37,516 nt of DNA, taken from positions 1 through 37,516 of the forward strand of contig NZ_BOPF01000065.1 in assembly GCF_016863615.1 (NCBI RefSeq), in the 5' to 3' direction. Made by a program: the position numbers and the translations under genes. The DNA is from Virgisporangium aliadipatigenens (GTDB lineage Bacteria > Actinomycetota > Actinomycetes > Mycobacteriales > Micromonosporaceae). Shown here piece by piece: positions 67 through 5,836 of this stretch; the first letter of the stretch is position 1; each line of letters opens with the position of its first letter. The notes under the pieces were generated by a model that had not been told where the DNA came from, searched no databases, and saw only the letters and a list, made by a program, of their open reading frames with translations.

Positions 67-1614
67 ATGGCGGACATTTTCGATGCGTATCCGATGTCCG
101 CGGCGTGGGACGAGATGTTCGCCCGGCCCGGCCTGCCCCGGCCCGCGTACGAGTCCGTCTTCGCGACGCTGCAGCCGCTCGCCCCAGCTGACCTGCGCTT
201 CCGTGCCGATCAGCTGGCCCGCGTCTTCACCGACCGGGGCGTGACGTTTGCCTACGCGGGTGAGGAACGCCCCTTCCCGCTCGACCTCATCCCGCGCATC
301 ATCGACGCCTACGAGTGGGACCTGCTCACCCGGGCCGTGCGGCAACGGGTGCGCACGCTCGAGGCGTTTCTCGCCGACCTGTACGGCAAGTGCGAGGTGC
401 TGCGCGACGGACTGGTGCCGCGGCGGGTGATCGCCACCAGCGCGCACTTCCGCCGCGAGGCGTACGCGATCGACCCCCCGAACGGCGTCCGCGTCCACGT
501 CAGCGGCGTCGACCTGGTCCGCGACGAACTGGGCCGCTTCCGGGTGCTGGAGGACAACCTGCGCATCCCGTCCGGGGTCAGCTACGTCATCGAGAACCGG
601 CGCGCCATGACACAGACGATGCCCGCGCTCTTCGCCGACGCCCCCGTGCGGCCGGTCGACGACTACCCGGCCCGGCTGCTGGCGGCCCTGCGCGCGGCCG
701 CGCCGGCCGGGGTCGACGACCCGTGCGTGGTGGTGCTCACGCCCGGCGTCTACAACGCGGCCTACTTCGAGCACGCCCTCCTCGCCCGCCTCATGGGCGT
801 CGAACTCGTCGAGGGGCGCGACCTGCGCTGCACCGCCAACCGGGTCTGGATGCGCACCACCCACGGCGAACGCCCGGTGCATGTGGTGTACCGCCGGGTC
901 GACGACGACTTCATCGACCCGCTGCACTTCCGGCCGGACTCGGTGATCGGCACGCCCGGCATCGTCAACGCCGCCCGCGCCGGCAACGTCACCCTGGCCA
1001 ACGCCATCGGCAACGGCGTCGCCGACGACAAGCTCATCTACACCTACGTGCCCGACCTGATCCGGTACTACCTGCACGAGGAGCCGCTGATCGACAACGT
1101 CGAGACGTGGCGCCTCGACGACCCGGACATCCTCGCCGACGTGCTCGACCGCCTGGACGAACTGGTCCTGAAGCCGGTCGACGGGGCGGGCGGCAAGGGG
1201 ATCGTGATCGGCCCGCAGGCCTCGTCCGGGGACCTGGCCGCGCTGCGCACGGCAGTCCTGAAGGACCCGCGCGGGTGGATCGCGCAGCGGCCCGTCGCGC
1301 TGTCGACCTCGCCCACCCTCGTCGCCGACCGGGTCGCGCCGCGCCACATCGACCTGCGGCCGTTCGCCGTGAACGACGGCACCGACGTGTGGCTGCTCCC
1401 CGGCGGCCTCACCCGGGTGGCGCTGCCCGAAGGAGCCCTGGTCGTCAACTCCAGCCAGGGTGGAGGATCGAAGGACACCTGGGTCCTGGCCAGTCCCCTC
1501 ACACCGACACCCCGGCCCATGGCGGAGCCGCCGCCCGCCGGACCGCCGCCCGGGGAGCCCGCCGAACGGGACCTGGGGCCGGCCGCGGCGCAGGCCGCGC
1601 AGCAGCAGCAATAA
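67..1614 (+). CDS. circularly permuted ATP-grasp type 2 family protein
   Basis: 515 aa. It belongs to the circularly permuted ATP-grasp family formerly split into DUF404/DUF407. The nucleotide-binding part includes a Gly-rich KPVDGAGGKG stretch near residues 366-375, and a GTPGIVNAARAGN-type segment near 298-310 is typical of the family. Members are predicted to form amide or peptide bonds with ATP; the substrate is unknown. The ATG at 67 is chosen because it opens the conserved N-terminus and has a leaderless-type -10 box just before it. The last 40 or so residues are Pro/Ala/Gln-rich and probably disordered. The stop lies 10 nt before the alpha-E gene, whose ribosome binding site starts at this stop, so the two are co-transcribed. 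Iyer and colleagues predicted a peptide-forming or peptide-tagging role for this ATP-grasp/alpha-E/transglutaminase association. Family assignment is firm; function is inferred. Confidence 0.9.
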   Translation: MADIFDAYPMSAAWDEMFARPGLPRPAYESVFATLQPLAPADLRFRADQLARVFTDRGVTFAYAGEERPFPLDLIPRIIDAYEWDLLTRAVRQRVRTLEAFLADLYGKCEVLRDGLVPRRVIATSAHFRREAYAIDPPNGVRVHVSGVDLVRDELGRFRVLEDNLRIPSGVSYVIENRRAMTQTMPALFADAPVRPVDDYPARLLAALRAAAPAGVDDPCVVVLTPGVYNAAYFEHALLARLMGVELVEGRDLRCTANRVWMRTTHGERPVHVVYRRVDDDFIDPLHFRPDSVIGTPGIVNAARAGNVTLANAIGNGVADDKLIYTYVPDLIRYYLHEEPLIDNVETWRLDDPDILADVLDRLDELVLKPVDGAGGKGIVIGPQASSGDLAALRTAVLKDPRGWIAQRPVALSTSPTLVADRVAPRHIDLRPFAVNDGTDVWLLPGGLTRVALPEGALVVNSSQGGGSKDTWVLASPLTPTPRPMAEPPPAGPPPGEPAERDLGPAAAQAAQQQQ

Positions 1615-1624
1615 GGAGGGGTCG

Positions 1625-2563
1625 ATGCTCAGCCGGATCGCCGAGTCCCTCTTCTGGATCGGCCGCTACGTCGAACGCGCCGACGACACCGCGCGCATCC
1701 TGGACGCTTTTCTCACCCGGTTGCTCGAAGACCCGTGGGCCGACGAGGACCGGGGCGGCCGGCAGCTGCTCGCCACGCTCGGCGCCGCCTCCCCGGGCGA
1801 CGGCCGGCTGACGACCGCCGCCGTGCTGGAGACGCTGGCGTTCGACGCCGAGAACCCGGGCGCGATCGCCGGTGCGCTGACCGCCGCCCGGGACAACGCC
1901 CGCGGCTGCCGGGAGACCGTCTCGACCGAGATGTGGGAGTGCCTCAACGTCACCTGGCACGCCCTCGGTGCGCGGCGCCTCGCGGCCGACCGGCTCGGCC
2001 CGGCGGTCTACCTGGCGTTCGTGCGGGAACGCGCCGCCGTCCTCGCCGGGCTGGCCGAGTCGACGATGAGCCGCGACGACGGGTGGCGGTTCCTGGTGCT
2101 GGGGCGTTCGCTCGAACGGGTCGACATGACCACCCGCCTGCTCTCCGTCCAGGCCGACGCGGCACCGGAGCATCCCGCGTGGCGCACGGCCCTGCGGGCC
2201 AGCGGCGCCGACGAGTCGTTCCTGCGGACCCACGGGGGGCACGTGCGCGCCGACCGGGTCGTCGAGTTCCTGCTCCTGGACCGTCTCTTCCCCAGGTCCG
2301 TGCTGCACGCGCTGACCACGGCGGAGGACTGCCTGCGGCAGTTGGATCCCTCGATGGAACGGGCCGGAGTGGCCGACCCCGCCCGCCGGCCCATCGGGCG
2401 GGCGCGCACCCGGCTCGAGTACACCGACTCGAAGGTGCTGCTCGCCGACCTGCCCGCCGCACTGACCGACCTGCAGGACGCCTGCGCGACGGCGAGCGCG
2501 GCCGTCACCGACCGGTACTTCCCCGAGTCGGTGCCGGTGAGCTGGGCGCACGAGGAGGTCTGA
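1625..2563 (+). CDS. alpha-E domain-containing protein (DUF403)
   Basis: 312 aa. The N-terminus MLSRIAESLFWIGRYVERAD is the hallmark of the alpha-E (DUF403) all-helical family, which almost always occurs beside or fused to circularly permuted ATP-grasp proteins. The ATG at 1625 has a strong ribosome binding site (AAGGAGGGG) about 5 nt upstream, overlapping the stop of the ATP-grasp gene. No catalytic motif is known for the family; it is thought to partner the ATP-grasp enzyme. The downstream transglutaminase gene starts 3 nt after this stop, so the three genes form one tight transcription unit. Length and conserved N-terminus are normal for a free-standing member. Confidence 0.9.
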   Translation: MLSRIAESLFWIGRYVERADDTARILDAFLTRLLEDPWADEDRGGRQLLATLGAASPGDGRLTTAAVLETLAFDAENPGAIAGALTAARDNARGCRETVSTEMWECLNVTWHALGARRLAADRLGPAVYLAFVRERAAVLAGLAESTMSRDDGWRFLVLGRSLERVDMTTRLLSVQADAAPEHPAWRTALRASGADESFLRTHGGHVRADRVVEFLLLDRLFPRSVLHALTTAEDCLRQLDPSMERAGVADPARRPIGRARTRLEYTDSKVLLADLPAALTDLQDACATASAAVTDRYFPESVPVSWAHEEV

Positions 2564-2565
2564 AC

Positions 2566-3396
2566 ATGTCCTGGCGGCTGCGGATCAGGCACATCACCGG
2601 GTTCACCTACGCCGGCAAGGCGCACGCGTCGTACAACGAGGCGCGGCTGACGCCGATGACGCTGCCGTGGCAGGTGACGCTGTTCAGCCAGGTGGAAGTG
2701 CAGCCGGTCGCGCCGGTGTACCGGTACTACGACTACTGGGGCACGCTCGTCACCTCGTTCGACCTGCAACGCGCGCACGGCGAGCTGAAGGTCGTCGCGA
2801 GCAGCCTCGTCGAGACCGACACCCCGCCCGCCGTATCCGTGGTCGATTGGTCGGCGATCGGCGAGGCTTCTGACCCGCATGCCGAGATGCTGGCGCAGAC
2901 GCCGCGCACCGCCGTCGCGGAGGACCTCGCCGCCCAGGCCGCCGCCGCCTCCCCGGGTGACCCTCTTGCGGCGGGGAGGGCGATCGCCGAGTTCGTCCGT
3001 TCGCACGTCGACTACGTGCCCGGCTCGACCGGGGTGCAGACCTCGGCGCAGGAGGCCTGGACCCTGCGCAAGGGCGTGTGCCAGGACATCGCCCACCTGA
3101 CCGTCGGGCTCCTGCGCGCCCGCGGCCTGCCCGCGCGGTACGTCTCCGGCTACCTGCACCCGCAGCGCGAGGCGCAGGTCGGCAGGACGGTCGAGGGGCA
3201 GAGCCACGCCTGGGTCGAGTACTGGTGCGGCGACTGGGTCGGCTACGACCCGACGAACGGCGTCCCGGTCGGGCCGCAGCACGTCGTCGTCGCGCGCGGG
3301 CGGGACTATGACGACGTGTCGCCGCTCAAGGGCGTGTACCACGGGTCGCCCGCCAGCCACCTCGGCGTAACGGTGGAGATCACCCGGGTCACCTGA
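2566..3396 (+). CDS. transglutaminase-like family protein
   Basis: 276 aa. It has an N-terminal beta-rich bacterial transglutaminase-like region (about residues 1-95) followed by a papain-like transglutaminase core. The triad is visible: Cys172 in GVCQDIAH, His214 in GQSHAWVEYW and Asp228 in GYDPTNG. The ATG at 2566 follows GAGGAGG 8 nt upstream, at the end of the alpha-E gene. The family may act as cysteine peptidase, amidase or crosslinker. In this operon it is expected to process or transfer the product of the ATP-grasp enzyme, but no substrate can be read from the sequence. No signal peptide is seen, so it is probably cytoplasmic. A 22-bp hairpin starts within the stop codon region. Confidence 0.9.
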   Translation: MSWRLRIRHITGFTYAGKAHASYNEARLTPMTLPWQVTLFSQVEVQPVAPVYRYYDYWGTLVTSFDLQRAHGELKVVASSLVETDTPPAVSVVDWSAIGEASDPHAEMLAQTPRTAVAEDLAAQAAAASPGDPLAAGRAIAEFVRSHVDYVPGSTGVQTSAQEAWTLRKGVCQDIAHLTVGLLRARGLPARYVSGYLHPQREAQVGRTVEGQSHAWVEYWCGDWVGYDPTNGVPVGPQHVVVARGRDYDDVSPLKGVYHGSPASHLGVTVEITRVT

Positions 3397-3539: not shown

Positions 3540-3612
3540 GGGGCCGTAGCCCAATGGCAGAGGCACACGGTTTAGGTCCGTGCCAGTGTGAGTTCGACTC
3601 TCACCGGCCCCA
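3540..3612 (+). tRNA. tRNA with UAG anticodon (Leu by codon), short variable loop
   Basis: 73 nt, fully foldable. The acceptor stem is GGGGCCG/CGGCCCC (7 bp) with discriminator A; CCA is not encoded. The anticodon stem is CACGG/CCGTG with loop TTTAGGT, giving anticodon UAG, which reads the leucine codon CUA. The T-arm is GTGAG-TTCGACT-CTCAC. The D-arm has a 3-bp stem GCC/GGC with an enlarged loop containing GGCAGA, as in leucine or serine tRNAs; alternatively it has a 4-bp stem with one bulged A. The variable loop is only 5 nt (CCAGT), whereas bacterial tRNA-Leu has a long extra arm. The gene itself is well supported; the amino acid it carries is uncertain. A TAAGGT box at 3500-3505 could be its -10 element. 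Confidence 0.85.
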
Positions 3613-3629
3613 CCCTCACCCGCACGAGT

Positions 3630-3658
3630 GGACCCCCGCTCGTGGTGAGCGGGGGTCC
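3630..3658. terminator. perfect 12-bp hairpin between tRNA and hydrolase gene
   Basis: GGACCCCCGCTC and its exact complement flank a 5-nt loop (GTGGT). It lies 17 nt after the tRNA and 22 nt beyond the stop of the convergent hydrolase gene, so it can terminate from either side. It has no T-run, as is usual for intrinsic terminators in GC-rich actinomycetes. Confidence 0.65.
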
Positions 3659-4496: not shown

Positions 4497-4618
4497 AGCG
4501 CTCTACCTGCATGGATGTGCCAGGTCACGCCGGGATCTCGACCGCCCGGAATCCCCACGACCTCGACGTGAGCCGTTACGATGCGACGGCACATGCCGAA
4601 TTCACGGGGAGGACGGCA

Positions 4619-5836
4619 TTGACTGATCACACTTCCGGACCCAATTTTCGCGGGCCGGATCCGGGCCGGGCGGACAGTCCGGCCGCATTCGTCACGCAGA
4701 TGCGACAGCTCAAGGAATGGTCGGGACTCGGCTTCAAGCAACTGGAGCAGCGGGCCGAACGCGCCGGTTCGCCGCTGCCGCACAGCACACTCTCGGCCGC
4801 GCTCGGGCGGGGCTCGCTGCCGCGCGCCGACCTGCTCGAGGCGTTCGTGCGGGCGTGCGGCTGCGACGACGAGACCGTGGACGCGTGGCTCGCCGCCCGG
4901 TCCCGGCTGGCCGGCGGGGTCACCCCGGCGCCGGCGCCCCCGTTGCCGGCGGGCTCCCTTCCGGCGACTCCGGAGTGGCCCGCCGCGCGGCGCGGCACCA
5001 CGGTGTACGCGGTGGTGCCGGCGCACGCGTTCGTGCAGGCGGACGGGTCGGGCGCGCCGGTCGCGGTGCCCGCGTCGGTCCGCCGGGCGCTGGGCCGCAT
5101 CACCCCGGCGCCGGTGCGCCGCGGCGGATGGCTGGTGCGGGTGTGCACGTCGGCGCTGGCGATCCTGACGCTCGCGCTGTTCTCCGTGACCGCCAGCCAG
5201 AGCGGCCACAACGTCGCCAACAACACGCCCGCGGCGCCGCCCGTGGCCGACCGGTCGCCGTCCGAGGCACCCCAGGTCGCCGCCGCGCCGCTCGCCTCCG
5301 CGTCCGGGTCCGGGGCACCGGGTTCGTCGGCGGCGTCGCCGTCGGCCTCCGCCACCACGTCGATCGGTCCCCACCAGCCGTCGAACGGCTTCTACCGGCT
5401 GCGGCCCGTCCACTCGTACAAGGCGAAGATGTGCGTCGGCCTCGCGGAGTCCGGCAGCCGGTTGATCCTGGCCCAGGAGGCCTGTTCGAAGAGCGACGAG
5501 CTGCACTTCGCGCTGGAGTACGCCGGCCGTTCCGTCGAACGGATCAAGCCGCGCTCGACCCGGTTCGGCAAGGACGCGTGCGTGAGCGTGGTCGACACCG
5601 GTGCGTACAACGGCGTTCACCTGAACCGGTGCGGGGACCTGCGCTCCGTGCAGCTCTTCTGGACCGAGCGCACCCGCACCCTCCCCGGAGCCGGGGTGGC
5701 GTACCGGCTGCGCCCCACCGCTCATCCGGCCAAATGTCTGTCGGTCGACAAGCGCAGTTCCGCCAAGGGCGCACTGCTGGTCGAGCAGGATTGCACCGGA
5801 GGGAACTACCAGGAGTTCGCCCTCGAGAAGGCATAG
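4619..5836 (+). CDS. membrane-anchored HTH protein with C-terminal beta-trefoil (ricin-like) domain
   Basis: 405 aa from the TTG at 4619, which has GGGAGGA 5-6 nt upstream. An in-frame ATG at 4511 lacks a ribosome binding site. Residues 26-98 form an XRE-like helix-turn-helix domain of the actinomycete type (LKEWSGLGFKQLEQRAERAG, then STLSAALGRGSLP). A Pro/Ala linker follows, then one transmembrane helix near 171-193 (LVRVCTSALAILTLALFSVTA), a Ser/Ala-rich extracellular spacer, and two beta-trefoil-like repeats (about 256-405; FYRLRPVHSYKAKMCVG and YRLRPTAHPAKCLSVD). The layout puts a DNA-binding head inside and a possible carbohydrate-binding domain outside. It may sense wall polymers and control nearby genes such as the divergent hydrolase; this is inference from layout and position. 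Confidence 0.85.
   Translation: MTDHTSGPNFRGPDPGRADSPAAFVTQMRQLKEWSGLGFKQLEQRAERAGSPLPHSTLSAALGRGSLPRADLLEAFVRACGCDDETVDAWLAARSRLAGGVTPAPAPPLPAGSLPATPEWPAARRGTTVYAVVPAHAFVQADGSGAPVAVPASVRRALGRITPAPVRRGGWLVRVCTSALAILTLALFSVTASQSGHNVANNTPAAPPVADRSPSEAPQVAAAPLASASGSGAPGSSAASPSASATTSIGPHQPSNGFYRLRPVHSYKAKMCVGLAESGSRLILAQEACSKSDELHFALEYAGRSVERIKPRSTRFGKDACVSVVDTGAYNGVHLNRCGDLRSVQLFWTERTRTLPGAGVAYRLRPTAHPAKCLSVDKRSSAKGALLVEQDCTGGNYQEFALEKA

Follow-up and report, generated by a model that had tools for sequence, protein, structure and literature searches.

The gene at positions 3540–3612 is very probably a leucine tRNA of class I shape that replaced the long-arm tRNA-Leu(UAG), and it is the only CUA reader found in its genome, a draft of 10.3 Mb in 112 contigs. 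By definition, the tRNA-Leu of bacteria belongs to class II, and its long variable arm is a feature on which annotation and isotype tools rely. Across a set of actinobacteria, CUA seems to be read solely by a class I tRNA-Leu, which appears to occupy the place at which relatives carry the long form. The whole stretch of DNA analysed here, 37,516 nucleotides, is referred to as the window, and its features of interest are as follows.

67–3396: three consecutive genes upstream of the tRNA, for CP-ATPgrasp, alpha-E and transglutaminase (Pfam)
3540–3612, plus strand: gene for a class I tRNA-Leu(UAG), 73 nt long, CCA not included (ARAGORN; Rfam RF00005, 55.3 bits; covariation in 62 relatives)
3549–3564, plus strand: D arm, GCCC / AATGGCAG / AGGC, with a 3-bp D stem, C13 facing A22, A14, A15, G18G19 and A20a (sequence and parse)
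3573–3575, plus strand: anticodon TAG (UAG), reads CUA (sequence and ARAGORN)
3583–3587, plus strand: 5-nt variable loop CCAGT, the last base of which, U48, pairs with A15 (sequence and relatives)
3612, plus strand: discriminator base A73 (sequence; A in 120/120 relatives)
3630–3658, plus strand: 12-bp GC-rich hairpin without a T run, 18 nt 3′ of the tRNA, a possible terminator (centroid fold)
Downstream of the tRNA: convergent NlpC/P60-type gene
4511–5836: protein that begins with a helix-turn-helix domain and has a weak ricin-B-lectin-like match in its C-terminal part

ARAGORN makes a single tRNA call in the window, tRNA-Leu (tag) at 3540–3614 on the plus strand, and the gene is solitary there, outside any array. 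The RF00005 match to 3540–3612 has an E-value of 2.1e-9, and its score compares with a gathering score of 29. A first-pass annotation of the DNA had described a working-looking gene with perfect stems, the anticodon UAG in the loop TTTAGGT and a variable loop of only 5 nt. ARAGORN, RF00005 and covariation confirm an intact class I tRNA gene, and the anticodon and the length of the variable loop are likewise as described. The claim about the stems holds for the acceptor (7/7 pairs), anticodon (5/5) and T (5/5) stems, and for the D stem only if it is counted as three pairs (10–12 with 23–25), C13 and A22 being unpaired. The anticodon loop has 7 nt, the T loop reads TTCGACT and the first pair is G1-C72. 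CCA is absent from the gene, positions 3613–3615 being CCC.

We aligned 62 class I relatives (53 with UAG and nine with other leucine anticodons) to look at covariation. Pairing was retained in 99.6% of 1240 cells and both-sided changes were seen in 15 of the 20 pairs; on each of five measures, none of 500 shuffles came up to the observed value. The strong covariation lies in the acceptor, anticodon and T stems. When the bare strand is folded by minimum free energy, the structure departs from the exact cloverleaf, yet is stable (z −3.43). Neither a consensus promoter nor a T-run terminator was detected near the tRNA; the terminator scan returned no sites because it requires a T run, which the hairpin at 3630–3658 lacks. 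A pseudogene reading was rejected, as the stems are intact and covary.

The genome has 72 places that match RF00005. All of them were passed to ARAGORN, which gave 77 distinct tRNAs, and no second UAG anticodon was found among these. Eight tRNAs have leucine anticodons. Four are long-armed, with one GAG gene, one UAA gene and two CAG genes that include an odd gene of 82 nt; the variable region of the long-arm tRNA-Leu has 12–16 nt, as compared with 5 nt in the window tRNA. Class I tRNA-Leu genes read UAG (the window gene), CAA (L191) and GAG (L181), and the eighth is an odd CAA gene (L192). A single LeuRS gene lies above the family cut-off.

Does the tRNA look like a substrate of that enzyme? 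According to PMC9976931, leucine identity in E. coli consists of A73, A15-U48, G18G19 and A20a, and the long arm is dispensable. The window tRNA has A73, A14, A15-U48, G18G19 and A20a, the leucine identity elements of that source. Moreover, it shares with long-arm tRNA-Leu a leucine core made up of A15-U48, A22 facing a mispaired position 13, and A73. Among the 454 tRNAs parsed from all loci, a sample enriched in leucine by the way it was fetched, this signature, chosen after the data had been seen, occurs in 237 of 244 distinct tRNAs with a leucine anticodon (170 class I and 67 class II) versus 1 of 210 others. Within the genome itself, 7 of the 8 leucine-anticodon tRNAs and 1 of the 67 others have the core. 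Since other tRNAs of the genome have A15 and A20a too, only the combination is informative.

We also ran a covariance model of the class I body on 24 genomes in which neither of our UAG gene patterns, described below, was present, and fetched 30 hits. All 27 hits scoring at least 76.6 bits, which came from 24 genomes, carry leucine anticodons (15 CAA, 9 UAA, 2 GAG and 1 UAG), and the three hits at 60–64 bits are Arg, His and Arg. Movement of the body among leucine anticodons only would be allowed by a synthetase that ignores the anticodon. We infer the following course of events. The gene would be transcribed and processed, with CCA added; the one LeuRS would charge the tRNA with leucine through A73 and the D-arm/hinge core (A14, A15-U48, G18G19, A20a) rather than the long arm; and the charged tRNA would read CUA. 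In this lineage, the short tRNA would have taken over from the usual long-arm tRNA-Leu(UAG) by gene replacement.

Short UAG genes are not confined to the window. BLASTN with the 73 bases matched 29 of 61 relatives at E ≤ 0.001; where the match was weak, the gene was another leucine isoacceptor. When named genomes were scanned with a pattern, at least 119 stretches with the short form came up, and the matches listed include Amycolatopsis, Saccharopolyspora, Micromonospora, Nocardioides and Acidimicrobiia. We gathered 121 distinct short UAG genes and parsed 120 of them, many of which had come by way of a pattern that fixes the D arm and the anticodon loop. All 120 have a 5-nt variable loop, A73, A14 and A15, and 119 have U48. 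A pattern that leaves positions 14, 15, 48 and 73 free retrieved 31 distinct genes, and A14, A15-U48, G18G19, A20a and A73 were kept in every one of them. Three of 137 were dropped from the parse: L063 (wrong 3′ end), L192 (odd body) and the cut-off CAG gene of L290.

The short and long forms largely exclude each other. In a phylum survey of 246 genomes with a long-arm and a short UAG pattern, the long pattern matched 195 genomes and the short one 7. One of these seven short matches is mispaired and due to chance; the 6 genomes with a real short match are all without the long pattern. Among 101 relatives, the long pattern occurs in 34 and the short one in 44, with 43 genomes having the short form only, 33 the long form only, 1 both and 24 neither (Fisher one-sided p 3.8e-10, computed on genomes that are related and not independent). 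In the sole genome with both patterns (G321), the long gene belongs to an array of 19 tRNAs and the short one lies next to a bcp gene. A family of another class (f43) is itself divided, with five of nine genomes short only, three long only and one neither. Even two genera are split by species into short only and long only (g4, G312/G005; g29, G030/G322).

The "neither" class shrinks on closer inspection. A wider D-arm pattern matched none of its 24 genomes. One of them (G338) turned out to carry a short UAG gene, its D loop being a variant, and two others that were examined (G012 and G129) have long-arm UAG genes with divergent D arms; therefore, the patterns overlook such genes. Once these three are assigned, 21 of the 101 relatives are left with neither form assigned.

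The two forms also share a neighborhood. Within 1.5 kb upstream of the tRNA and on its strand, we found a bcp-type peroxiredoxin gene at 24 of 38 short loci and 20 of 33 long loci, with gaps of 33–981 bp. The sample comprised 38 of the 44 short genomes, and 31 of the 34 long genomes together with two from the 246-genome survey. Since bcp stands beside both forms, short and long genes hold equivalent positions in many genomes. The bcp tree, built from 46 proteins, was poorly resolved and too weak for a count of switches (at least 13 label changes, two of them forced by starred branches; 71 of 500 shuffles gave a number as low).

Phages, too, carry related class I tRNA-Leu genes. We found 148 phage records with a match, and among the matches listed all but one are annotated as tRNA-Leu. 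Nine phage regions were opened. Class I tRNA-Leu genes are present in Gordonia phage GodonK, Mycobacterium phage DyoEdafos, Streptomyces phage Targaryen, Enterococcus phage TJE2 and others. They resemble the window gene in their class I body, their leucine anticodons and, in most cases, the leucine core. They differ in being phage-borne, mostly in small tRNA groups, and in depending on the host for the synthetase. Enterococcus phages TJE2 and EFGrNG (L401 and L402) share a 590-bp stretch that is 89.5% identical. In one phage it contains a class I UAG gene, whereas the counterpart in the second is of class II and 87 nt long, which shows a class switch at one locus. The acceptor and T arms of these two tRNAs are similar, as if only the middle had been exchanged. 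Class I tRNA-Leu genes with GAG, CAG or CAA were seen in tRNA arrays of relatives too (L352, L364, L365, L395 and L252); the L395 array packs more than 30 tRNAs into 7.6 kb.

We put forward, tentatively and with somewhat more doubt than belief, a broader reading in which the shape class of tRNA-Leu is not fixed in Actinomycetota. The class I body, shared with a pool borne by phages and tRNA arrays, may have taken over the chromosomal locus of the long-arm tRNA-Leu(UAG) again and again, even within genera. Under repeated displacement, the body could take any leucine anticodon because LeuRS ignores both the anticodon and the long arm, and one synthetase would be left charging two tRNA shapes. 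The displacement could be driven by escape from phage or toxin enzymes that recognize the long arm. The natural short/long pairs offer a way to ask what the long arm is for and how a tRNA changes its shape class with no change of meaning. They also bear on whether phage-borne tRNAs feed the resident set.

The window locus itself has a distinct setting, and no bcp gene stands beside its tRNA. CP-ATPgrasp, alpha-E and transglutaminase genes form a known trio of unclear function. Of 173 carrier loci, three, including one from Dactylosporangium vinaceum, have the alpha-E and transglutaminase genes next to the tRNA. The CP-ATPgrasp gene is there in 1 of 173, two of the three alpha-E/transglutaminase loci ending before its place. 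Neither the NlpC gene nor the protein at 4511–5836 has a counterpart beside the tRNA in any of the 173 carrier loci. The position away from bcp, unlike that of many relatives, together with the related class I genes in phages and in arrays L352, L364, L365 and L395, could be taken to mean that the window gene is an accessory copy of phage or array origin that adds little to translation, or that it is decaying. We consider this very unlikely, as the stems are intact and covarying, the genome yielded no second UAG tRNA, the gene stands alone outside an array, and its upstream operon is common to three other carrier loci. A mobile origin long ago is possible.

We then turn to the meaning of CUA. 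In a first alignment test on 139 carrier sequences (1.01 Mb), in which the named carriers possibly have a long UAG gene as well, mainly leucine was found at 55 of 82 informative CTA sites versus 2503 of 3793 CTC sites. A second test, with CTA masked, used 400 kb each of two carriers without the long pattern (G039 and G054). Leucine was found at 25 of 30 CTA sites (the rest being three Ile, one Met and one Val), as compared with 599 of 741 for CTC and 283 of 326 for TTG, a test that a small misincorporated fraction would escape. CTA sites therefore align like those of other leucine codons, and we rejected CUA reassignment. The first-pass annotation had offered two options, a non-standard leucine tRNA or a tRNA charged with a different amino acid. 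The former is supported by the leucine core, the leucine-only strong relatives, the locus shared in relatives and leucine at CUA sites. The latter, with CUA reassigned or ambiguous in these actinobacteria, we regard as extremely unlikely. Reassignment would be cheap given the rarity of CTA (5 of 10,035 codons in the called window genes and 0.98 per 1000 in carrier loci), and a yeast mitochondrial tRNA-Thr with anticodon UAG does read CUN as threonine according to PMC7609411. However, that tRNA has an 8-nt anticodon loop, whereas the window tRNA has a loop of 7 nt and its carriers have CTA at leucine positions. In addition, the part of PMC8629427 that we draw on reports that Codetta, applied to more than 250,000 assemblies, found new bacterial sense reassignments for arginine codons only, with no leucine codon among them.

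The aside in the first-pass annotation on misassigned actinomycete tRNAs fits poorly, since the window tRNA is the only UAG tRNA found and not an extra copy. The mistranslating proline-type tRNAs of Streptomyces and Kitasatospora reportedly combine a proline-tRNA body with a foreign anticodon. The window tRNA is not proline-bodied: it has G1-C72 and the leucine core, and the ARAGORN tRNA-Pro calls in the genome start with CGG (5/6) or CCGG (1/6). The case is a caution against labelling such tRNAs misassigned.

How, then, does the window tRNA compare with known leucine tRNAs? It shares with the long-arm bacterial tRNA-Leu(UAG) the anticodon, A73, A15-U48, A22 facing a mispaired position 13 and, in many relatives, the bcp locus; it differs in its 5-nt variable region and in its acceptor and T stems. 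It has the leucine anticodon of a class II tRNA-Leu and lacks the long variable arm, and it combines the class I body, leucine core and leucine anticodon of the class I tRNA-Leu family as defined here. A short-loop tRNA-Leu(TAG) is already in print, in a tRNA cluster of Mycobacterium mucogenicum/phocaicum, where PMC6582537 places it beside a normal long-loop gene. It shares the short variable loop. However, that source describes an additional copy within a cluster that was probably gained by horizontal transfer, whereas the window tRNA is the only UAG tRNA found and lies outside arrays. For M. tuberculosis, PMC11541572 names tRNA-Leu-2, 3 and 5 as long-looped, which we take to imply that the other tRNA-Leu are short. 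The set differs from the present case in that, in G129 (same order), the short tRNA-Leu read UAA and CAA and the UAG tRNA is long. In G129, the UAG, CAG and GAG tRNA-Leu are all long-armed (L385, L382 and L380), and G151, G129 and G043, all of the same order, have class I tRNA-Leu for UAA and/or CAA (L348, L349, L372, L373 and L358). The human mitochondrial tRNA-Leu(UUR) is another leucine tRNA without a long arm, its identity resting on A73 and A14 (PMC9976931), but it is weakly folded and served by a mitochondrial enzyme. Among open papers, we found none on a class I tRNA-Leu as the resident actinobacterial CUA reader or on a class switch at one locus.

The genome contains further unusual tRNA genes. 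One region (L170, G000:C25:9400-11300) has about 19 divergent tRNA genes in less than 2 kb, with bodies unlike those of the ordinary tRNAs of the genome. Three odd genes on separate contigs (L182, L192 and L194, on G000:C38, C45 and C58) have a common body, GTAG.GCAGA.GT.G...GGAGGACGCCGG, and differ in their anticodons (Gly GCC, Leu CAA and Arg CCG); possibly they are tRNAs of one identity with several anticodons. Finally, a tRNA-like gene (L193, G000:C2:572148-572218) has the amber anticodon CTA, an RF00005 score of 42.2 bits and the ARAGORN label tRNA-Pyl.
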